NCBI GenBank assembly: GCA_949283445.1
Contig: CASDTD010000298.1
Coordinates: forward strand, 1-15,713
Length of the DNA: 15,713 bases
DNA from: an uncultured Coriobacteriia bacterium
Lineage (GTDB): Bacteria; Actinomycetota; Coriobacteriia; Coriobacteriales; QAMH01
Direction: 5' to 3'
Shown: piece by piece, positions 2,255-15,713 of the stretch
How the letters are laid out: each line of letters opens with the position of its first letter
Numbering within the stretch: position 1 is the first letter of the stretch
Made by a program: the position numbers and the translations under genes
The notes under the pieces: model-generated
Databases searched by the model: none
Seen by the model: the letters and a program-made list of their open reading frames with translations, nothing else
What the model was told of the DNA's origin: nothing

Positions 2255-4957
2255 ATGGTCAGCGAAGATAACAAGCGGTTCGTGTTCCCGGCTAAACTCG
2301 AGATGCCGTACCTCCCTCTGCACTATGTGCGACGCGAGGCGCTGCTCGAGAACATGCGCTCCGTCGTTTCCCATCAAAAGCTCACCTGCATGGTTGCACC
2401 GCAGGGCTGCGGCAAGACGAGTGCCTTGATCGACCTTGTCTTGACCTTGCGCGAAGACGGGACCGAGCTTGAAAACGGGCAGAAGAGCGCTTCCTGGGGC
2501 ACGGCTTGGGTCAACGTCGATGCTCAAGACGACGACGCGATGCGGTTTTGGCTGCATGTGTTTATCGCGGTGGGGGTGCTTTCCGCAAACGCGCAGGATG
2601 GCTTTTCCGAGCTGCCCTCCATCGCGCAGGCCGCAGCCAAGCTCCATGTCTTGACGGATGGGCCGTTTCTGCTGGTGCTCGATCATTTCGAGTGCATCGA
2701 CAACCCTGCGATAGAATCGCAGCTGATCGAGTTCGCGGCGCTTGCCCCACGTGATTTCCACGTTATCTTGAGCTCGAAGAAGCTTTCCAAGCAAATGCAG
2801 CTCGGCTCTTACGAGCTGGGGCATATACAGATCGTGGCGTCGAGCTTGCGGATGTCGAAACCCGAAGCGCGCGCGTTCGTGGATTCCGCTTTGGGTCAGT
2901 GCACGCTTTCGGATGAAGAGTTCGACCAGGTCTACGACTTGACGGAAGGGTGGGCGCAAGGCGTCGAGCTTGCCGTGCAGGTAGCTGTCACCGCCGCCTC
3001 GAACGGTCATGTTTTCTTGTTTGGGGGCACGTGCCGGCAGGTAAGGCGCTATTTCTCCGCGTGCATCCTGTCGCGTGTCGATTCCGAGCTGTTCTCGTTC
3101 GCGCTGGACCTGTCGTTTCTGGAACGCTTCTCCAGCACCCTGTGCTCCGAGGTCTTCGAAGACGCGCGCGTGCAGGAATCCCTGGAGTCCATACTCGGCG
3201 ACGGGCTGTTCCTGGTCGTTCCCTGTGACGAAGAAGACCGGTGGTTCCGTTTCAACCGCCTGTTCGCCGATTGGCTGCGAAACGAGCTTTTGAGCGTTCC
3301 CTTGGAGGTAACGCGGAAGAACTGCCTGAGGGCGGGGGAGTGGTTCTTCAATCACGGGCTGGTTAACGAGGCGGCAAAGTATCTGCTCATGGGAAGCGAT
3401 TTCGGTTACGTCGAGAACATGGCCGACGCGCTGTGCGGGCTCAAGCGCTCGAATGTGGATACCCCGTATCTCGTGTGGCTGGCAGGCGTGTCGGCCGACG
3501 AGTTCCCTTCCTCTCCGCTGCTGTGCATGCTCTCTGCCTGGGCATGCAATGCAGCCGCGCGCGTGGAAGAGGCGTTTGCCTGGACCGACCGGTTCGAGGC
3601 TGCATGCCGGCAACCCGCTTTCGCCGAGACCATCAAGCCCGATGTCTTGGAATTCGCGATTAAGGTCATGCAGATGAAGTGCAAGGCCATGGTGGGCGAC
3701 AGCTTCGCGGTGCGCGAGGAATGCGAGGAACTTCTGGCCAGCGATTCCCATATCAAACCCTCGCTTCTGAGCATGCTGTACCAGACGCTGGGGGAGTCTA
3801 TCGAGCAATCGGGCGACATGGCGCTTGCCGAGGAGATGTACTTGCAGGCACAGGCCAGCGCCAGCGTGGACCGCACGCGGCATCAGCTGTTCTTCAACAT
3901 GCTCAACGTGGTCAAGATGCACCTGTATTTGGGCGACCTGGAAGATGCCGAAAGCGCGTGCGAGAAGCTGCTTTCCGCTTGTCCGGCCGACTTCGTGTTC
4001 TCGGCTGCGGGCAAAGCGTATCTGGCGCAGATATACGTCGAGAGCAACCGCTTGGATGAGGCGTTTTCGCTGGCACGGCGGGCGCTACGTGGCGTTTCGG
4101 CCTACTGCAACATCGACTTGTTCATCGACGTGAAGATGGCGCATGTGGATTGTCTTATCGCGTCGTCCGACCTGTCTGAGGCCTATCGGGTCATCTCCGG
4201 TGCCATCATGAAGGGCGAGCAGTTCGACGTGCCGCGCGGCGTGCTGCTGAACGCGTATTTCAAGCAGGCTGAAATCGCCGTGCGCCGCCATAACGCACGT
4301 GACCTGAAGATTATCGAGAGCAAGTTCTCACGGCGCCTTCAGACACATGACGAATACCGGCAGGTGCTCTACGCGATTATCTGCGGGTTTCTAGCGCAGG
4401 AAACGGGGGACTTCGAGACAGCCGCCGAATGGTACTGCAAGGCGGCAGGCCGCGCCCGGGCGCATGGGTACAACCTGCTGTACGCCAAGGCGCTCGTCGC
4501 GGCGTTGCGTCTGTTCGAGGAGCATGACGACCACGAGCGGGCGACTGCGGTGCTCTACAAGCTGATTCCGCTGGCAAGCTCGCACGGCTACATCAGGTGC
4601 GTGCTCGTCGGCGGCGATGCGGTGCTGGAAGCATTGCGCGAGTACTCGAGCCTGAAGCACGCGAACGCCGCTGCCCGGACGTTTGCGAAAACCGTGTTGC
4701 TCGCGGCGGAATCTGGGGGCGTGCAGCAGGCGGCGCCCAAGAAGCCGCGCGATGCCGGCAGCGCCCTGGCGCCCGACTTGACCGACCGCGAACGCGAAGT
4801 GCTCACGCTGCTCAACATCGGCATGTCGCGCAAGGAGATATCCGAAGAGCTCAAGATCAGCATCAATACCACGAAAAAGCACCTGTCGAGCATCTACAGC
4901 AAGCTTGGCGTGAGCACGCGCGACGAAGCGCTGGAAGCGTACGAAGAGGGCGTCTGA
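2255..4957 (+). CDS. LuxR-family transcriptional regulator with MalT-like ATPase (LAL/STAND type)
   Basis: This 900-residue cytoplasmic regulator has the layout of MalT and other large ATP-binding LuxR regulators. An N-terminal NTPase has Walker A APQGCGKT (48-55), a MalT-like VNVDAQDDDAMRFW stretch (about 87-99) and Walker B LLVLDHFE (139-146). A long helical middle follows, with TPR-like segments (for example around LYQTLGESIEQSGDMALAEE). A C-terminal LuxR helix-turn-helix ends it (about 842-895: LTDREREVLTLLNIG, then ISINTTKKHLSSIYSKLGV). Proteins of this class are usually activators that oligomerise on an inducer plus ATP. I chose the ATG at 2255 because the ATPase fold begins shortly after it; a GTG at 2228 is possible and an ATG at 1988 would overlap the ABC gene. 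It sits directly upstream of the molybdoenzyme genes and is a candidate substrate-sensing regulator for them. Confidence 0.9.
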   Translation: MVSEDNKRFVFPAKLEMPYLPLHYVRREALLENMRSVVSHQKLTCMVAPQGCGKTSALIDLVLTLREDGTELENGQKSASWGTAWVNVDAQDDDAMRFWLHVFIAVGVLSANAQDGFSELPSIAQAAAKLHVLTDGPFLLVLDHFECIDNPAIESQLIEFAALAPRDFHVILSSKKLSKQMQLGSYELGHIQIVASSLRMSKPEARAFVDSALGQCTLSDEEFDQVYDLTEGWAQGVELAVQVAVTAASNGHVFLFGGTCRQVRRYFSACILSRVDSELFSFALDLSFLERFSSTLCSEVFEDARVQESLESILGDGLFLVVPCDEEDRWFRFNRLFADWLRNELLSVPLEVTRKNCLRAGEWFFNHGLVNEAAKYLLMGSDFGYVENMADALCGLKRSNVDTPYLVWLAGVSADEFPSSPLLCMLSAWACNAAARVEEAFAWTDRFEAACRQPAFAETIKPDVLEFAIKVMQMKCKAMVGDSFAVREECEELLASDSHIKPSLLSMLYQTLGESIEQSGDMALAEEMYLQAQASASVDRTRHQLFFNMLNVVKMHLYLGDLEDAESACEKLLSACPADFVFSAAGKAYLAQIYVESNRLDEAFSLARRALRGVSAYCNIDLFIDVKMAHVDCLIASSDLSEAYRVISGAIMKGEQFDVPRGVLLNAYFKQAEIAVRRHNARDLKIIESKFSRRLQTHDEYRQVLYAIICGFLAQETGDFETAAEWYCKAAGRARAHGYNLLYAKALVAALRLFEEHDDHERATAVLYKLIPLASSHGYIRCVLVGGDAVLEALREYSSLKHANAAARTFAKTVLLAAESGGVQQAAPKKPRDAGSALAPDLTDREREVLTLLNIGMSRKEISEELKISINTTKKHLSSIYSKLGVSTRDEALEAYEEGV

Positions 4958-5232: not shown

Positions 5233-5261
5233 TTGTCACGGATGGGCTATGGCAGCATCAT
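5233..5261 (+). promoter_or_regulatory. Sigma70-like promoter for the transhydroxylase-like operon
   Basis: TTGTCA (5233-5238, five of six consensus bases) and CATCAT (5256-5261, four of six) are separated by exactly 17 bases. The predicted start of transcription is near 5268, just before the tandem palindrome, giving a leader of about 145 bases before the alpha ATG at 5414. This is inferred from pattern only. An alternative -10 is TATCCT at 5351-5356, but it lacks a good -35. Confidence 0.45.
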
Positions 5262-5270
5262 AGGTCACGT

Positions 5271-5305
5271 AAGGGTAGTACCCGTATCAAGAGGGTACTA
5301 CCCTT
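5271..5305. promoter_or_regulatory. Tandem palindromic operator (perfect 13-bp inverted repeat)
   Basis: AAGGGTAGTACCC (5271-5283) and GGGTACTACCCTT (5293-5305) are perfect reverse complements separated by nine bases. Each arm is itself a palindrome, GGGTA-N-TACCC, so this is two copies of one dyad with centres at 5278 and 5298, two helical turns apart. That arrangement is typical of cooperative binding by a dimeric regulator on one face of DNA. It lies immediately downstream of the promoter at 5233-5261. In RNA it would also form a 13-bp hairpin, without a U-tract. The binding protein is unknown: the adjacent LuxR regulator is one candidate, an unlinked repressor another. Confidence 0.7.
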
Positions 5306-5413
5306 ATAGATGGTACCGGTAAGGCGTTCCGGCTCCCATTCGCCCTTCCGTATCCTGTTCATGTCTCGTGTTACAAGCGCAGGCGAGAGATTGGAAAGGA
5401 AGGGAGAAACCAG

Positions 5414-8020
5414 ATGTCATCGAAAACCTCAGACAAGTCGGTCATCAAGTGTATCGGTTTCTGCGGCTTCGGCATGGGTGCCAACATCACCGAAGTCGAT
5501 GTGAAAGACGGGCGTGTCGCCCGTATTCGCCCGCTGCACTATGACCAGCTGTACAAACCCGAGGATCTGAACTACTGGAAGATCAAGGCGCGTGGCCACG
5601 AGTTCGAGCCACTTATGAAGAGCTTCCCGCCGCCTCTGTCCATTGGCTACAAGGCACGCACCTATTCTAAGAACCGTATTCCGTATCCCCTGAAGCGTGT
5701 TGACTGGGATCCGGACGGCGAGCGTAACACGCAAAACCGCGGCACGTCCAAGTTCGTGCGCATCTCCTGGGACGAAGCGTGCGACATCATCGCCAAGGAA
5801 ATCGTGCGCATACAGAAAGAGGCAGGTCCGTTCTCCATCCTCGCGCAGTCTGACGGACATGGCGAGACCAAGACCGTCCATGCAGCGCATGGCTGCCAGA
5901 CCAATCTGCTCGGCCTGATCGGCGGCTTTCTGAAGCAGGCGCGTCAGCCAGACAGCTGGGAAGGCTGGTACTGGGGCGCCAAGCACGCGTGGGGCATGGA
6001 CCCGGTCGGCATGCAGACCATCACCACCAACGTCATCAAGGACATTTCCGAAAACGGCGACGCGATTTTGTACTGGGGCGCCGACCCCGAGGCGACGCCC
6101 TGGGGCTGGGGCGGTCAGATGGCAAGCCGCCTGTGCTACTGGTTCACCGAAATCGGCGTGAAGTCCATCTTCGTCTGCCCCGACTGCAACTACGCGGCCG
6201 CCATCCACGCGGACAAGTGGATTCCTGTCCTGCCTAACACCGACGTCGCCCTGCAGCTGGCCATCGCCTATATCTGGATCACCGAGGGCACGTACGAGAA
6301 GGACTACATCGACACGCACGCCGACGGCTTCGACTGGTTCGAGTACTACGTGCTGGGCAAGGAAGACGGCATTCCCAAGACGCCGGAGTGGGCAGCCGAG
6401 AAATGCGGTGTGCCCGACTACAAGATCAAGGCGCTGGCACGTTACTGGGCACAGCACAAGGTCTCCATCGCGCACTGCAACGGCGGCGGCTACATCCGCG
6501 CGGCGTTCTCGCACGAGCCCGCCCGTATGGAAGTCTACCTGCTGGGCATGCGCGGCGTCGGTCAGCCGGGCGTCAACCAGTTCCAGATGATCGAATGGCA
6601 GCTCATGGACGTCAAGACCCTGAACCCGCTGCCTTCCTGCTCCATCCTGCCTACCGTCGAGGGCGCTTACCGCGGCGCGACTATGGAGATGAGCGAACCG
6701 TTCATCCCCAAGACGATGATTCACAAGGGCATTACCGAGCCGGGTATCCATTGGCATGGCCATGTCATCGCCGGCATCGCTCGCGAAGATCAGTTCATCC
6801 CCTTCAAGTGGGAACACGAGGCCGACAAGGGCATCCGCATGATCTGGTCGGATGCGCCGTGCTGGTCGGTTTGCTGGAACGGTGGCCACGAGTTCCAGGA
6901 CGCGTTGCGTGACCCCAAACTCGACTTCGTGCTTGTCCAGCATCCCTGGATGGAGAACGACTGCTACTTCGCCGACATCATCCTGCCCACGAGCACGATG
7001 ATGGAGTCCGAGGACTTCAACGTCGACGAGCGTTCTGGCCAGTGGAACGCCATTGCCTACGAGGAACAGGCAATCGAGCCGGTGGGCGAGGCTCGCTCCG
7101 ATTACGAGGCGGTCGGTTCGGTCGCCAAGGCACTGGAGAAGTTCGGCGGACAGTACGAGAATCTCTACGAGCGTTACACCGAGGGCAACGAGGTCATCGA
7201 CTGGATTGAGAAGGGCTTCCGTAAAAGCGGCGTGCCCAACGGAGAGACGGCCGACTTCGAGCAGTTCAAGAAGGACCGCTTCATGCTCTTCCCCACACGC
7301 GAGGACTGGGAAGAGATGCCGGCTGGCCTCATCGGCTTCTACGAGGATCCGGAGAACAATCCGCTGCAGACGCCTACGGGCAAGATCGAGTACTATTCCG
7401 TGCCGCTTGCCAAGGCGTTCCCTGATGACAAGGTGCGCGGCCCGGTGGCGCACTGGATCGAGAAGGGCGACGGGCACGACGACCGCCTGTCTTCCGAGCG
7501 CGCGAAGAAGTATCCGTATCTGCTCGTGACCAACCACCCGCGCTGGCGCGTGCACGCCAACCACGACGATATCCCCTGGCTGCGCGAGATTGATAACGTC
7601 AAGGTCAAAGGCCCTGATGGCTATATGTACGAGCCGTTGCTCGTCAACCCTGTCGATGCCGAGAAGCTTGGTCTGAAAGACGGCGATATCGCTGGCATCT
7701 ACAATGAGCGTGGCATGGTTCTGGGCGGTGTCATCGTGTCCGAGCGCATTATGCCCGGCGCGGTGCAGCAAGACCACGGCGCACGTGCCGACAGCGTGGT
7801 CGTCGGCATAGGCGGTCTGGACCGTGGCGGTTCTAACAACCTGATCTGCCCGTCTGCGACGACGTCTGCGAATTGCGCGGGCGAGGTCACGAACAGCTTC
7901 CTCGTCGGCGTCAAGAAGGTCGACGTCTTCGAGCTGGCAAAGAAGTATCCCGAGGCGTTCTCCCGTTCGTACGATCCTGACTTCGGCAGAACGTATAACA
8001 GCGCGATTGTGGAGGGGTAG
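5414..8020 (+). CDS. Molybdopterin (bis-MGD) oxidoreductase, pyrogallol transhydroxylase/catechol dehydroxylase-like alpha subunit
   Basis: This 868-residue catalytic subunit belongs to the DMSO reductase superfamily. It is very close in length to the alpha subunit of Pelobacter acidigallici pyrogallol:phloroglucinol transhydroxylase (about 875 aa). The motif QPDSWEGW gives Asp180-Ser181, matching by position and context that enzyme's catalytic Asp174 and Mo ligand Ser175; His149 (SDGHGE) corresponds to its His144. As in that enzyme there is no N-terminal [4Fe-4S] motif (only Cys13-x3-Cys17) and no Tat signal, so it should work in the cytoplasm. FADIILPTSTMMESEDFN (about 519-536) and the C-terminal dinucleotide-binding domain (about 700-860, starting YPYLLVTNHPRW) are typical family segments. 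The equivalent of the transhydroxylase's Tyr404 is not obvious, so the substrate may differ. A GGAAGGGAG ribosome site precedes the ATG. The beta gene follows after three bases. Confidence 0.88.
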   Translation: MSSKTSDKSVIKCIGFCGFGMGANITEVDVKDGRVARIRPLHYDQLYKPEDLNYWKIKARGHEFEPLMKSFPPPLSIGYKARTYSKNRIPYPLKRVDWDPDGERNTQNRGTSKFVRISWDEACDIIAKEIVRIQKEAGPFSILAQSDGHGETKTVHAAHGCQTNLLGLIGGFLKQARQPDSWEGWYWGAKHAWGMDPVGMQTITTNVIKDISENGDAILYWGADPEATPWGWGGQMASRLCYWFTEIGVKSIFVCPDCNYAAAIHADKWIPVLPNTDVALQLAIAYIWITEGTYEKDYIDTHADGFDWFEYYVLGKEDGIPKTPEWAAEKCGVPDYKIKALARYWAQHKVSIAHCNGGGYIRAAFSHEPARMEVYLLGMRGVGQPGVNQFQMIEWQLMDVKTLNPLPSCSILPTVEGAYRGATMEMSEPFIPKTMIHKGITEPGIHWHGHVIAGIAREDQFIPFKWEHEADKGIRMIWSDAPCWSVCWNGGHEFQDALRDPKLDFVLVQHPWMENDCYFADIILPTSTMMESEDFNVDERSGQWNAIAYEEQAIEPVGEARSDYEAVGSVAKALEKFGGQYENLYERYTEGNEVIDWIEKGFRKSGVPNGETADFEQFKKDRFMLFPTREDWEEMPAGLIGFYEDPENNPLQTPTGKIEYYSVPLAKAFPDDKVRGPVAHWIEKGDGHDDRLSSERAKKYPYLLVTNHPRWRVHANHDDIPWLREIDNVKVKGPDGYMYEPLLVNPVDAEKLGLKDGDIAGIYNERGMVLGGVIVSERIMPGAVQQDHGARADSVVVGIGGLDRGGSNNLICPSATTSANCAGEVTNSFLVGVKKVDVFELAKKYPEAFSRSYDPDFGRTYNSAIVEG

Positions 8021-8023
8021 AGC

Positions 8024-8836
8024 ATGAAAGCATTCCTAATCGACGTTGCGAAATGCAATGGCTGCCGCAACTGCCAGATTTCCTGCAAGGACGAGCACTG
8101 CGGCACTTCCTGGCTGCCCTATGCAGCCGAGCAGCCGATGACCGGTCAGTATTGGTGCAAGGTCGACGAGAAGACGCGCGGCAGCGTGCCGGTCGTGCGC
8201 GTGAGCTACACGCCGCTCATGTGCGGGCACTGCGATGACGCTCCCTGCATGAAGGTCGCCAAAGACGATGCGGTGTATCGCCGTGAGGATGGCATCGTCA
8301 TCATCGACCCGGAGAAGGCCAAGGGCCAGAAGGCCATCTACGAGGCCTGCCCGATGGGTGCCATCTACTGGAACGAGGATCTTCAGCTCCCGCAGAAGTG
8401 CACGGGCTGCGCGCATCTGCTGGACGATGGATGGACCGAACCGCGCTGCGTGGACGCCTGCCCGACGGGCGCTCTGCAGTTCGGCGAGGAGTCCGAGCTC
8501 GACCTCGCAGGTGCCGAGCAGCTGCCCGAGCTTGCCGGCCTGGGCGCGCACGTGTGGTACCGTAACCTGCCGAAGCGTTTCGTCGCCGGTTGCCTAGTGG
8601 ACTTCGAGGCGCGCGAGGTCGCCATCGGCGTCGAGGTGAAGCTGCTCGACGCGTCTGGTGCCGAGGTCGCGAGCATGGAGACCGATGAGTTCGGCGACTT
8701 CATGTTCGACCAGGTGGAGGCTGCTGCCTACACCATCGAGGCTGCGGGTAAGGACGGCGCCATCACCCTTGCTGCCGATGTCACCGAAAAGGACCTGAAC
8801 CTGGGCGATATCGCCTGGGCGGGGCAAGCTGACTAA
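8024..8836 (+). CDS. 4Fe-4S ferredoxin-type beta subunit with C-terminal beta-barrel domain (transhydroxylase-like)
   Basis: This 270-residue electron-transfer subunit pairs with the alpha subunit three bases upstream. Twelve ligand-type cysteines (11, 14, 17, 21; 67, 70, 75; 109; 126, 129, 142, 146) suffice for three [4Fe-4S] clusters. This is the count known for the P. acidigallici transhydroxylase beta subunit (about 274 aa); DmsB/NrfC-type subunits have four. Residues from about 184 to 266 form an additional domain (PKRFVAGCLVDF, then TDEFGDFMF), resembling the carboxypeptidase-regulatory/Cna-B-like fold at the end of the transhydroxylase beta subunit. There is no signal peptide or membrane anchor, so the complex is probably soluble and the clusters may act within an internal redox cycle. 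GGAGGGG just before the ATG overlaps the end of alpha, so the pair is probably coupled in translation. Confidence 0.9.
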   Translation: MKAFLIDVAKCNGCRNCQISCKDEHCGTSWLPYAAEQPMTGQYWCKVDEKTRGSVPVVRVSYTPLMCGHCDDAPCMKVAKDDAVYRREDGIVIIDPEKAKGQKAIYEACPMGAIYWNEDLQLPQKCTGCAHLLDDGWTEPRCVDACPTGALQFGEESELDLAGAEQLPELAGLGAHVWYRNLPKRFVAGCLVDFEAREVAIGVEVKLLDASGAEVASMETDEFGDFMFDQVEAAAYTIEAAGKDGAITLAADVTEKDLNLGDIAWAGQAD

Positions 8837-8860
8837 CGAGTCTGCAAGCTAGCACGACAG

Positions 8861-8902
8861 GCGACCCGCAGGGGAATGCTCCTCGGCGGGTCGCTTTTCT
8901 CT
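8861..8902 (+). terminator. Intrinsic terminator of the alpha/beta operon
   Basis: GCGACCCGC (8861-8869) and GCGGGTCGC (8886-8894) are perfect complements, with an inner AGG/CCT pair, and are followed at once by TTTTCTCTT. It lies 25 bases after the beta stop. It should separate the molybdoenzyme genes from the downstream MFS/amidase pair. Confidence 0.85.
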
Positions 8903-8905
8903 TCA

Positions 8906-8973
8906 CAAAATGAGGTCTCTGTACCGTTACAGACATGCATTTTGGTCAGTAGCCGTACAGAGACCTCATTTTG
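8906..8973. repeat. Perfect 19-bp inverted repeat with internal third copy
   Basis: The arms 8906-8924 (CAAAATGAGGTCTCTGTAC) and 8955-8973 are exact reverse complements around a 30-base loop. The loop itself holds a degenerate third copy on the minus strand (8927-8944, CAAAATGCATGTCTGTAA). So one module occurs three times: once on + and twice on -. It begins four bases beyond the terminator tract. It may be a repetitive palindromic element, a protein-binding array, or a second terminator for antisense transcription; the sequence does not decide. Confidence 0.75.
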
Positions 8974-9048: not shown

Positions 9049-9072
9049 CTTGTCTACCCTCCAATTTCATAC

Positions 9073-9083
9073 GGGTGATACCC
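9073..9083. promoter_or_regulatory. Operator-like site GGGTGATACCC upstream of the MFS gene
   Basis: The 11-mer has the same GGGT and TACCC half-sites and spacing as the tandem operators before the alpha gene (GGGTAGTACCC), differing only in the centre. A degenerate GGGT...TACCC pair follows at 9099-9115. The site is about 100 bases upstream of the likely MFS promoter, consistent with co-regulation of enzyme and transporter. An 11-base match is suggestive rather than conclusive. Confidence 0.4.
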
Positions 9084-9178
9084 CCCCGTTTTCTCCAAGG
9101 GTTATGTCTTTACCCGCAGCGGTGCCTTTCCAAATGGTTCACGCGGAGTGTTTCGCGGGAGGGGAGTCATTTTTATCC

Positions 9179-9278: not shown

Positions 9279-10580
9279 ATGTCCAGAGAGTCGGCCGTCG
9301 ACAAAAGTGCGTACGGCAACAACAAGCTCGCCCAGTGGGGCGTGGCAGACGATCAGCTCACATCGGTGCAGCAGTGGCTCGCGTTCGCGTCCATGATGTT
9401 GCTGGGCGTGGTGAGCGTCCATCAGTATATGATGGTCAGTCCGGTTCTTACCTTCATCGGAGACGAATACGGCATGACATTGGGGAATGTCGGCTTCATG
9501 ATGTCGGTCTTCAACATCGCCGGCTTGATTCTCGTGTATCCCGCCGCTGCGCTGCTGCGCAAGTTCGGCGTCAAGTTCAGCCTCATCCTGACGGTCGTCG
9601 TCAGCCTTCTTGGAAACATCATGTCGTTGGCGGCGACTGGTGTCGAGATGTTCTTGGTGGCACGCACGCTGCAGGGCTGTGGTTTCGGTTTGATTGGCGT
9701 TGTCGGTAACAACCTCATCCCTCGTCTGATGCCTGCTAGCAAAATCGGTCTTTCGATGGGCATCTGGGGCCAGTGGTTCCCCGGCGGCGTGTTTTTGGCG
9801 ACGTTCACCACGCCCGCTCTGTATGCGGCGTTTGGGTGGAGAAGCCTGTTTGTTATGTCGTTGATTCTGTTTGTCATCACTGCTGTTTTGCTTCTTGTAT
9901 GGTTCAAACTTCCGCGCGTGCCTGAGAACGTGGTCGTCCAGGGCAAGAAGAACGCTGTACGCAAGTTCACGAAGACGCATTTCAAGAGCGCTATGCTGAT
10001 CATCGTCGCGTTCCTTTCCTGGGGCATCGTCTACAACGCAATCAACAGCTTCTATCCCACTTATGCGCAGGATGTCTACAACATGTCGGTGGCAGACGCC
10101 TCCTTCACGACGATGTTCGTCACCATCCTTTCTGTCCCGATGGGCATTATCGCGGGGGCGCTTGCAGACAAGCTCGTGCGTCGCAAGGCGTTTCTTTTGG
10201 TTGGGTATGCTCTGTTCGCTATCATCAGTGCCTTCATGCTGTGGTGCAACACGCCGAATCCGGCGCTCATGTGGACTGGCCTGGCTATTCTCGGTGCCAT
10301 ATGCGGGGCGATTATCCCGACCATCACCCGCACGATTATTCCCGTGCTGGCGATGTCGCCCGAGCACACTGACATCGCGCTCGCCTCGCAGCTCGTTGGT
10401 ACGACCGCTGGCGGCATCATCGCCGGTTTCTTTGGCACGCTCGTCGCGGGCACGTCTTATGCGACTGCCGGTATGGTCACGGCTATCCTGCCGGTGCTCT
10501 CGTTTGTCATCGTGTTGCTGTGCAAGAGCGACCGTGGCATCAATCTGGACGATTACAGCGTGATCGAGGAAACGGAGTAG
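9279..10580 (+). CDS. MFS transporter, 12 TM segments
   Basis: This 433-residue integral membrane protein of the major facilitator superfamily has about twelve hydrophobic segments in two halves. The loop 2-3 basic motif is LLRKFGVK (92-98) and its counterpart in loop 8-9 is GALADKLVRRK (about 293-303). The ATG at 9279 is chosen because AGGAGG lies six bases upstream; an earlier in-frame start at 9243 would put that ribosome site inside the gene. Relatives carry small organic anions or act as exchangers, but the substrate cannot be read from sequence. It lies downstream of the transhydroxylase-like pair with a terminator and its own promoter between. An operator-like site shared with that operon suggests import or export of its substrate or product (inference). 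Confidence 0.85.
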   Translation: MSRESAVDKSAYGNNKLAQWGVADDQLTSVQQWLAFASMMLLGVVSVHQYMMVSPVLTFIGDEYGMTLGNVGFMMSVFNIAGLILVYPAAALLRKFGVKFSLILTVVVSLLGNIMSLAATGVEMFLVARTLQGCGFGLIGVVGNNLIPRLMPASKIGLSMGIWGQWFPGGVFLATFTTPALYAAFGWRSLFVMSLILFVITAVLLLVWFKLPRVPENVVVQGKKNAVRKFTKTHFKSAMLIIVAFLSWGIVYNAINSFYPTYAQDVYNMSVADASFTTMFVTILSVPMGIIAGALADKLVRRKAFLLVGYALFAIISAFMLWCNTPNPALMWTGLAILGAICGAIIPTITRTIIPVLAMSPEHTDIALASQLVGTTAGGIIAGFFGTLVAGTSYATAGMVTAILPVLSFVIVLLCKSDRGINLDDYSVIEETE

Positions 10581-10683: not shown

Positions 10684-12165
10684 ATGAGCGATGGCAGCTA
10701 CTTGAGCGCGGTCGATCTCTCCAACGATATTAAGGTCAAGAAGGTTTCGTCCGTCGAGGTTATGGACCGCTGCATAGACATGGCCGAGAAACGCGACCCG
10801 TCGATTAACGCGTTTACCTACCGCGCCTTCGACGAGGCGCGGCAAAAGGCGAAGGAAGCCGAGAAGACGCTTATGGATGGCGATGCGAAAGGCGCGTTTT
10901 TCGGCGTGCCGACGGCCATAAAGGACTTCTTGCCAGGCGTCCCGGGGTGGCCGAACACCATGGGCGGCGTGAAAGCTGTCTCCCATTTGACTGATACCGT
11001 ATACAGCAATTATTCCAGGGCGATGCTGGACGAGGGCGCTATCATCATCGGCAAGACCAATGCTCCGTCGTTCGCGTTTCGCGGCACGTGCGACAACAAG
11101 ATGTTCGGGGCGACCTCGACGCCGTTTAAGCCTGGTTATAATTCCGGTGGTTCGTCAGGTGGTTCCGCGGCCGCTGTCGGCGATGGCATCGTACTCATAG
11201 CGGAGGGAACCGATGCTGGCGGCTCGAGCCGCATTCCCGTGGCTTGGTGCGGATGCTACGGCTACAAGGCTGGGCATGGCGTGCTGCCTTCCACTCCTCG
11301 TCCTGATGCGTTTATGCCTATACACGTGCAACCGGTTGACGGGTCGATTTCGCGTACCGTCAAGGATACGGCCTACATTCATCAAGCAATGGCGAAATTC
11401 GACCCGTTTGACCCTCTGAGCGTCGATTTGTCCGGACAGGACTTCTGCGCGGCACTCGAGAAGTCGGTCAAGGACTGGAAGATTGCCTATACACCTGACT
11501 TCGGGATGTTTCCCGTCGATGCCGAGGTGGAGCAGATCGTCGAGAAAGCCGCTTTGCGCTTTGAGGATGCCGGCGCGCATGTCGAGAAGGTCGATTTCAA
11601 GTTCGCTCATTCGGCATTCGAATATGCTGAGGCATGGTGCCGTCTTATCTCGATTTCGGGCATGCAGAGTTTCGAGCAGTTGAAAGCGCAGGGTATCAAC
11701 CTGCTGAAAGACCACCACGACGACTTACCCGACGAGCTTGTTGACTGGACGCGTAAGCTCTATCAGCTCGATTACGTCGATTACTACTATGACTCGATTA
11801 TGCGCACGGAAATCTACGATGGCCTGCAGACGGTGCTGAGCGATTACGATTTGATTGTCTCGCCGACGACGATTTGCATGCCGGTCAAAAACGACCCGGG
11901 TCATGACACGGTGGGTCCGACGAAGATGAACGGCATGGCAGTCGAGCCGCTCATCGGCTGGTGTGAGACCTTCCTGTGCAATTTCAGCTACAATCCGGCC
12001 GCGTCCGTCCCGGCGGGCATCTCCAAGGACGGCTTCCCGGTTGGCATGCAGATTATCGGGCGTCGTTTCCACGACGAGGACGTTTTCGCGGCCAGCGCCG
12101 CTTTCGAGCGCATCAGCCCCTGGGCGTCGATCTACGACATCACGGCTGGCAGGAACCTAGCCTAA
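10684..12165 (+). CDS. Amidase-signature family hydrolase
   Basis: This 493-residue cytoplasmic hydrolase has the Ser-cisSer-Lys triad of the amidase-signature family: Lys80 (GVPTAIKD), cis-Ser157 in NSGGSSGGSAAAVG, and nucleophile Ser181 in GTDAGGSSRIP. The 24-residue spacing between the two serines equals that in fatty acid amide hydrolase. Family members cleave linear amides, including aryl-acetamides, acyl amides, allophanate and the Gln of GatA. Lack of GatB/GatC neighbours and the divergent sequence argue against GatA. GGAAAGG sits 13 bases before the ATG, rather far. It follows the MFS gene by 103 bases containing a hairpin and is probably co-transcribed with it. The pairing suggests an amide imported by the MFS protein and hydrolysed inside; that role, and any link to the molybdoenzyme, are inference. 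Confidence 0.9.
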   Translation: MSDGSYLSAVDLSNDIKVKKVSSVEVMDRCIDMAEKRDPSINAFTYRAFDEARQKAKEAEKTLMDGDAKGAFFGVPTAIKDFLPGVPGWPNTMGGVKAVSHLTDTVYSNYSRAMLDEGAIIIGKTNAPSFAFRGTCDNKMFGATSTPFKPGYNSGGSSGGSAAAVGDGIVLIAEGTDAGGSSRIPVAWCGCYGYKAGHGVLPSTPRPDAFMPIHVQPVDGSISRTVKDTAYIHQAMAKFDPFDPLSVDLSGQDFCAALEKSVKDWKIAYTPDFGMFPVDAEVEQIVEKAALRFEDAGAHVEKVDFKFAHSAFEYAEAWCRLISISGMQSFEQLKAQGINLLKDHHDDLPDELVDWTRKLYQLDYVDYYYDSIMRTEIYDGLQTVLSDYDLIVSPTTICMPVKNDPGHDTVGPTKMNGMAVEPLIGWCETFLCNFSYNPAASVPAGISKDGFPVGMQIIGRRFHDEDVFAASAAFERISPWASIYDITAGRNLA

Positions 12166-13712: not shown

Positions 13713-13740
13713 CGGCGCACCCGGTGGTTCGGGTGCGCCG
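13713..13740 (-). terminator. Perfect 11-bp hairpin between the two NCS2 genes (attenuator/terminator candidate)
   Basis: CGGCGCACCCG (13713-13723) and CGGGTGCGCCG (13730-13740) are exact complements with a six-base loop. On the minus strand the stem starts 21 bases after the first permease's stop and is followed by CTTTCTATCC, a weak U-rich tract. It could partly terminate transcription so that the second permease is made at a lower level, or stabilise the upstream message. Confidence 0.65.
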
Positions 13741-15255: not shown

Positions 15256-15713
15256 CTAACCCGCCACAGCGGTCTTGTAGAAACGCAGTTCGGCGATGGC
15301 CTGGTCTTTTTCGGTCAGATCGAGGTCGCGGTACTGGTCCAGGTAGCCGTCTTTCTGAATCCACAGGCGGTACTTCTTGGGTTCGAGGTCCTCGAACCAG
15401 ATGTCGCCGAACTCGTCGGTCTGACCCGAGAAGAGGAACTCCTCCGTCTCGACGTCTTGGACCGTCGCCGTCGCGCCATCGACGACTTCATCGGCGTCGA
15501 TGTCGACGACCGTCGCCGCGATGAAGCGCTTGGGCTTGTTCAGGTAGTAGACGCGCGGCTGGGTCTCGAACTCCGGATGGAGCACTTCCGCGTCGTCTAG
15601 CTCGTCGCCGACATCTTCCACCTCGCCAAAACGCAACGCACCGGTGGCGCAGGCGTCCACGCAACGCGGCACGCTCCAGCCGTCGTCCAGCAGGTGCGCG
15701 CAGCCCGTGCACT
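15256..15713 (-). CDS. 4Fe-4S beta subunit of a second transhydroxylase-like molybdoenzyme, N-terminal part outside window
   Basis: This is the C-terminal 151 or so residues of a paralogue of the beta subunit at 8024-8836; the gene runs off the right edge. The visible part opens with the last cysteine group (CTGCAHLLDDGW, then RCVDAC), nearly the same as in the first beta subunit. It continues into the same extra domain: KPKRFIAATVVD, TDEFGDIWF, then a terminal LTEKDQA segment matching LTEKD-like residues in the paralogue. The domain is somewhat longer and the two copies are diverged outside the motifs, so this is an older paralogue rather than a recent copy. The catalytic alpha gene is expected just upstream, beyond the window. 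It is the first visible gene of the minus-strand unit with the NCS2 pair. Confidence 0.9.
   Translation of the reverse strand, partial: CTGCAHLLDDGWSVPRCVDACATGALRFGEVEDVGDELDDAEVLHPEFETQPRVYYLNKPKRFIAATVVDIDADEVVDGATATVQDVETEEFLFSGQTDEFGDIWFEDLEPKKYRLWIQKDGYLDQYRDLDLTEKDQAIAELRFYKTAVAG

Follow-up and report, generated by a model that had tools for sequence, protein, structure and literature searches.

Genes and features of the locus

We analysed a 15,713-nucleotide stretch of DNA from an uncultured Coriobacteriia bacterium (the window; G+C content 60.6%), in which a regulator gene is followed by the genes for the two subunits of a putative molybdopterin enzyme (Table 1). The best solved relative of the alpha subunit is the large subunit of pyrogallol hydroxytransferase (E = 1.3e-108), in keeping with the preliminary description of this gene as transhydroxylase-like. 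The window further encodes two purine-type permeases, and its first 2 kb look, by eye only, like ABC transporter genes. At its far end, positions 15256-15672 of the reverse strand hold an end fragment that runs off the window and shares with beta a carboxypeptidase-regulatory-like domain; a second molybdoenzyme operon may lie next to this end.

Table 1 Coordinates of genes and sequence features in the window
Feature	Position	Strand	Basis or remark
MalT-like (LAL-type) LuxR-family regulator, 900 aa, proposed activator	2255..4957	+	Domain matches, orthologues in related clusters
TTGTCA-17-CATCAT, promoter of the preliminary description, probably unused	5233..5261	+	Near-chance match
Enclosing inverted repeat, proposed operator	5270..5306		14 nt per arm, 9-nt loop
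Dyad 1, GGGTAGTACCC	5273..5283		Two inverted TACCC half-sites
Dyad 2, GGGTACTACCC	5293..5303		Its TACCC (5299-5303) is nearest the proposed promoter
TATCCT, proposed −10 of the alpha promoter	5351..5356	+	Distance rule common to 10 related promoters
Molybdopterin enzyme alpha subunit, pyrogallol-hydroxytransferase-like	5414..8020	+	Domain scan, solved-structure match
4Fe-4S beta subunit	8024..8836	+	Domain scan
One-mismatch dyad GGGTGATACCC, weaker candidate second operator	9073..9083		Upstream of MFS gene
MFS transporter	9285..10580	+	Domain scan
Amidase	10684..12165	+	Domain scan

Among the eight window proteins scanned, the product of 2255-4957 is the only transcription factor. It joins a MalT-type TPR region to a C-terminal LuxR helix-turn-helix (HTH), with domain matches to TPR_MalT (2.5e-15) and GerE HTH (7.5e-14) that bear out its earlier designation as MalT-like; the scores are 57.1 bits for PF17874 (cut-off 45) and 51.5 bits for PF00196 (cut-off 23.5). 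With regard to a possible N-terminal ATPase with a P-loop, the MalT model spans residues 11-565 and GCGKTS is readable in the translation; the domain scan gave no ATPase family among the matches listed.

Two exact dyads make up most of the inverted repeat

Two exact GGGTA-N-TACCC dyads lie between the regulator and alpha genes, 20 bp apart from start to start, just as had been proposed. The repeat around them is perfect, as also claimed, with arms (5270-5283 and 5293-5306) that are 100% complementary but 14 nt long, one base more than the 13 bp given before. Because two dyads with identical arms have complementary centre bases here, an 11-bp inverted repeat arises automatically, and the TAA/TTA flank is the sole extra. 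The nested repeat thus mostly follows from the two dyads and is not independent evidence.

The dyad pair itself is hard to obtain by chance. No identical-arm perfect 5-1-5 pair within 40 bp appeared in 300 dinucleotide shuffles of the window, and 8 of 300 shuffles had a pair when centre gaps of 0-4 were permitted. On the + strand of the window, 7 of 12 TACCC occurrences are intergenic, while intergenic DNA makes up ~1458 of 15713 bases.

The cluster recurs in related genomes, the dyad does not

For comparison we used a family of 138 genomes, probably Eggerthellaceae to judge by gene content and the abundance of LuxR and molybdoenzyme candidates, and a class-wide sample of 396. Four family members (G457, G458, G459 and G425) carry, in one neighbourhood, an alpha subunit 84-85% identical and a regulator 37-45% identical to those of the window; in G665, from the sample of 396, alpha is 79% identical and each of two regulators 33-34%. 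A regulator orthologue therefore accompanies the cluster in five genomes. In G665, loci L153 and L154 form one cluster with two regulator copies and two amidase copies. Several molybdoenzyme genes are preceded by a small gene whose product starts MCFRPP and has CxxC pairs and a Pro/Ala/Gly-rich tail (about 8708-8917 at L078, reverse complement; also L077, L079, L087, L088 and L090); searches of the window for MCFRPP, MCYRPP and CFRPP gave no match.

As a unit, the double dyad is not conserved. Allowing up to three mismatches, we found it in 1 of 138 family genomes (G520, two mismatches), at a locus without homology to the cluster proteins, and the backwards-pattern control matched in 5 of 138. 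None of 30 alpha-homologue loci, a subset of the alpha matches, had a dyad with one mismatch or fewer up to 700 bp upstream. The alpha promoter lies further upstream in G457-G459, since alpha is inside an operon there. The dyad had been offered as a compact motif for finding the whole regulon, with conservation upstream of orthologous alpha genes as its test; these results do not support that idea. Wider searches for it fared no better: a contig scan with centre spacers of 4-22 returned 46 stretches of mixed spacings, none titled Coriobacteriia, and three viral stretches with a double-dyad match had no homology to the cluster. Plasmid and viral sequences yielded nothing usable as relatives of the cluster.

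TTACCC-type arrays occupy the corresponding gaps

In the relatives, the gaps that follow the regulator and precede molybdoenzyme genes contain tandem TTACCC-type repeats with a step of 11-13 bp. In eight such gaps from four related clusters (1655 bases, hand-picked after the repeats had been noticed), TTACCC occurs 16 times and is found in 7 of 8 gaps, while 500 shuffles averaged 0.5 and never exceeded 4; GGGTAA occurs in none of them. When any 6-mer was allowed, the top count in 300 shuffles reached 15 (mean 5.3) against 16 for TTACCC, so that this test is not strong by itself, whereas the count of TTACCC alone is.

Location in the genome points the same way. A search of ten genomes for TTACCC doublets gave nine matches, eight of them in the cluster (three in G425, four in G457 and one in G458) and the ninth, in G475, at a site without homology to it; the backwards control gave three. 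G459 has no exact TTACCC doublet though the regulator is present, and its repeats are mostly AACCC and CACCC variants. No doublet was found in G368, G460, G476, G519 or G414. Raw counts of triple arrays had to be discarded as evidence, with 23 matches to three TACCC at 11-13 bp (in 17 of 138 genomes) against 32 in the backwards control. Simple tandem repeats account for 15 of the 23; the other eight are four in the cluster (G457 twice, G458 and G425), two overlapping ones in G477, and one each in G486 and G070. For triple arrays it is only location and spacing that carry the argument.

The last half-site keeps its distance to a −10-type hexamer in ten related promoters

In six loci (103 kb) from G457, G458, G459, G425 and G665, we looked on each strand for an ACCC doublet with a TANNNT hexamer 20-99 bp further on; only doublets that such a hexamer follows were counted. 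Ten promoters from all five genomes have a TANNNT whose distance from the start of the last ACCC half-site is exactly 51 bp. A further nine cases at 63-64 bp correspond to one repeat further up, and every other distance in the range has at most two. Among 46 unrelated loci (329 kb), each distance from 45 to 57 bp had 0-3 cases, with two at 51 bp. The genes downstream of the ten promoters are a small peptide gene, a second molybdoenzyme gene, alpha in G425, and in G665 the MFS gene and a regulator gene; the array upstream of that regulator gene suggests autoregulation there. Autoregulation in the window finds no such support: a TATCCT at 2191, before the regulator gene, has no ACCC half-site 50-52 bp upstream.

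The rule has exceptions in at least two arrays, with no −10 at 51 bp in the G425 array between regulator and molybdoenzyme or in the G665 array after one regulator. At four loci with more distant regulators (L081, L082, L155 and L156), no ACCC doublet stands 50-52 bp before TANNNT. All six promoters of G457-G459 (L077, L078 and L079; counted by eye) have a further element 27 bp ahead of the −10, GGTCATG(A), which may be either an unusual −35 region or the site of a second factor. It is absent from the G425 alpha promoter and from the window.

The window comes within one base pair of this distance: from start to start, its last TACCC (5299) and TATCCT (5351), the hexamer that the relatives' loci L078 and L079 have as well, are 52 bp apart. 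When we kept the operator in place and shuffled the sequence downstream of it, 4 of 5000 trials had TATCCT at 50-52 bp and 292 of 5000 had any TA[TAG]NNT there, so the telling observation is the exact hexamer only. Scanning the window for a single ACCC half-site 50-52 bp before TANNNT gave two matches, at 5299 and at 13718, the latter inside a permease gene. What these comparisons show to be conserved is the TACCC half-site and its distance to a −10 hexamer, not the dyad unit.

TATCCT at 5351 is probably the −10 of the alpha promoter, which would place the start of transcription near 5363. A true promoter further downstream, at this very hexamer, was among the options of the preliminary description, and the distances of 51 bp in ten related promoters and 52 bp in the window argue for it. 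The operator would then occupy about −92 to −58 relative to that start, a position expected of an activator, and the paradox of a MalT-like regulator bound downstream of its promoter would be gone.

Control by repression or roadblock, suggested earlier, is unneeded once TATCCT at 5351 is the promoter. It would have transcription start from TTGTCA-17-CATCAT and a dimeric regulator block it from the dyads just downstream. Palindromic dyads on one helix face are typical of dimeric repressors, and the promoter-like sequence is indeed present, with 9 of 12 consensus matches; one such match against a shuffle mean of 0.3 is nonetheless near chance. Moreover, relatives with non-palindromic arrays show both the half-site and its spacing from TATCCT, and a roadblock accounts for neither. 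We consider it unlikely.

Further elements lie upstream of the MFS gene. The gap before it holds, besides the one-mismatch dyad (shuffling this stretch gave at least one such dyad in 20 of 2000 trials), additional TACCC at 9055 and 9111 and a TATCCT at 9174. A second promoter here is the weaker case because the ACCC half-site closest to this TATCCT is 63 bp away and none lies at 50-52 bp. A terminator-like inverted repeat (8856-8899; 20 nt, 80% complementary) runs into TTTTC just after beta, and would leave the MFS gene with its own promoter. A 29-nt inverted repeat, 90% complementary with a 10-nt loop, follows at 8906-8973.

The regulator shares its recognition helix with array-bearing relatives

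The closest relative of the regulator, P0002, is 74% identical. N-T-x-K-K-H is the recognition-helix sequence of the window regulator, of its seven closest relatives (P0002-P0008, compared as protein sequences), of the regulators at L077-L080 and of one G665 regulator; the second G665 regulator shows K-K-Y. Those relatives that lack a TTACCC array (L081, L082, L155 and L156) have K-H or K-T, and L082 and L155 have CACCC repeats. The association of K-K-H with TACCC was noticed post hoc in a small number of regulators and should be taken as a lead rather than a test. At L126 (G477, contig 4, 1477-1515), GGTACCC occurs four times at 11-bp intervals beside TACAAT, near a LuxR-type HTH gene with K-K-H.

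That G477 gene adjoins its GGTACCC repeats, and TACCC is therefore not necessarily private to the MalT-like branch. Hence the dyads might be bound by a regulator encoded elsewhere, such as a membrane LuxR-type protein or another TACCC-reading LuxR-type factor; membrane LuxR proteins activate catechol dehydroxylases in Eggerthella lenta, according to the accessible sections of PMC9734109. We regard this as quite unlikely, since the adjacent regulator stays with the cluster in five genomes. G368 and G460, members of the same family with only a 26% partial regulator match, lack the TTACCC doublet, as does the orthologue-bearing G459. Finally, an RNA hairpin that ends or slows transcription arriving from the regulator gene is very improbable: the repeat folds well (-28.5 kcal/mol, z -4.4, 0 of 200 shuffles as good), but no T run follows the stem, the relatives' repeats at the same place are direct rather than inverted, and neither shared half-site nor distance is explained. 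The terminator scan, which found none, has a loop limit of 8 that puts this 9-nt loop outside its test.

Discussion

We propose, with a probability of roughly 0.75, that the MalT-like regulator docks at four TACCC half-sites and activates the operon from the TATCCT promoter. The two dyads would be a cluster of half-sites for the protein encoded just upstream, which would oligomerise with ATP and an inducer, presumably the operon's phenolic substrate, and dock at about −92 to −58. RNA polymerase would thereby be recruited to a promoter that has TATCCT (5351) as its −10 and lacks a recognisable −35, and alpha and beta, perhaps the MFS gene too, would be turned on. From the half-site, its recurrence in related clusters, its constant distance to the −10 and the shared recognition-helix residues, we infer binding, oligomerisation, inducer, activation and transcription start.

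Several observations count against activation by this regulator. The window half-sites are head-to-head with a 20-bp step, whereas those of the relatives are head-to-tail at 11-13 bp; regulator identity is about 33-45%; the dyad is absent from the relatives and an exact TTACCC doublet from G459; one array each in G425 and G665 lacks a −10 at 51 bp; and GGTCATG(A) is missing from the window. Tentatively, one MalT-like lineage may read TACCC in two geometries with the −10 distance unchanged. The promoter would then constrain the last half-site only, and the regulator oligomer would tolerate a flipped HTH partner.

A close counterpart of the proposed system is Escherichia coli MalT, which shares the TPR_MalT region and C-terminal LuxR HTH and reportedly activates through MalT sites in direct repeat (Vidal-Ingigliardi 1991, as cited in PMC8265627), the arrangement of the relatives' arrays. 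It differs in that MalT recognises the MalT box, distinct from the TACCC half-site; in that direct repeats occur in the relatives and not in the head-to-head window; in its neighbours, which are molybdoenzyme genes here; and in that the window regulator scores 187 bits against an NCBIfam MalT equivalog cut-off of 537. Also comparable are DadR, CadR and HcdR of Eggerthella lenta, LuxR regulators with 10-12 membrane helices that activate molybdoenzymes substrate-specifically (PMC9734109, accessible sections). These share with the window regulator the C-terminal LuxR-type HTH, the bacterial group and molybdoenzyme targets, but carry a membrane domain where ours matches MalT-type models; those same sections hold no binding motif for the three that we could find. 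More generally, LuxR-type regulators beside such enzymes are described in the available parts of PMC9734109, PMC11585353 and PMC12771579 (membrane-bound in the first two), in which we found no operator motif; the word MalT is absent from those parts of PMC11585353 and PMC12771579. Actinomycete LAL regulators, which have an ATP-binding part, are likewise large LuxR-type proteins, and direct repeats are reported for SARP-LAL binding (PMC5930380); these regulators belong to Streptomyces antibiotic clusters, unlike the present case.

Activation by a MalT-like protein is ordinary in kind; the value of the finding lies in the operator code it offers for this family of enzymes. We found no description of the code in the accessible portions of the open-licence literature, to which the search was confined. 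The bacterial group carries many molybdoenzymes of unknown substrate, and regulators are used for guessing substrates (PMC11585353, in its available parts). A recognition code linking K-K-H to TACCC might extend to other LuxR-type regulators of these bacteria. The operator code, TTACCC-type repeats 51 bp before a −10, corrects where the promoter should be sought and would make the regulator's regulon readable from sequence.
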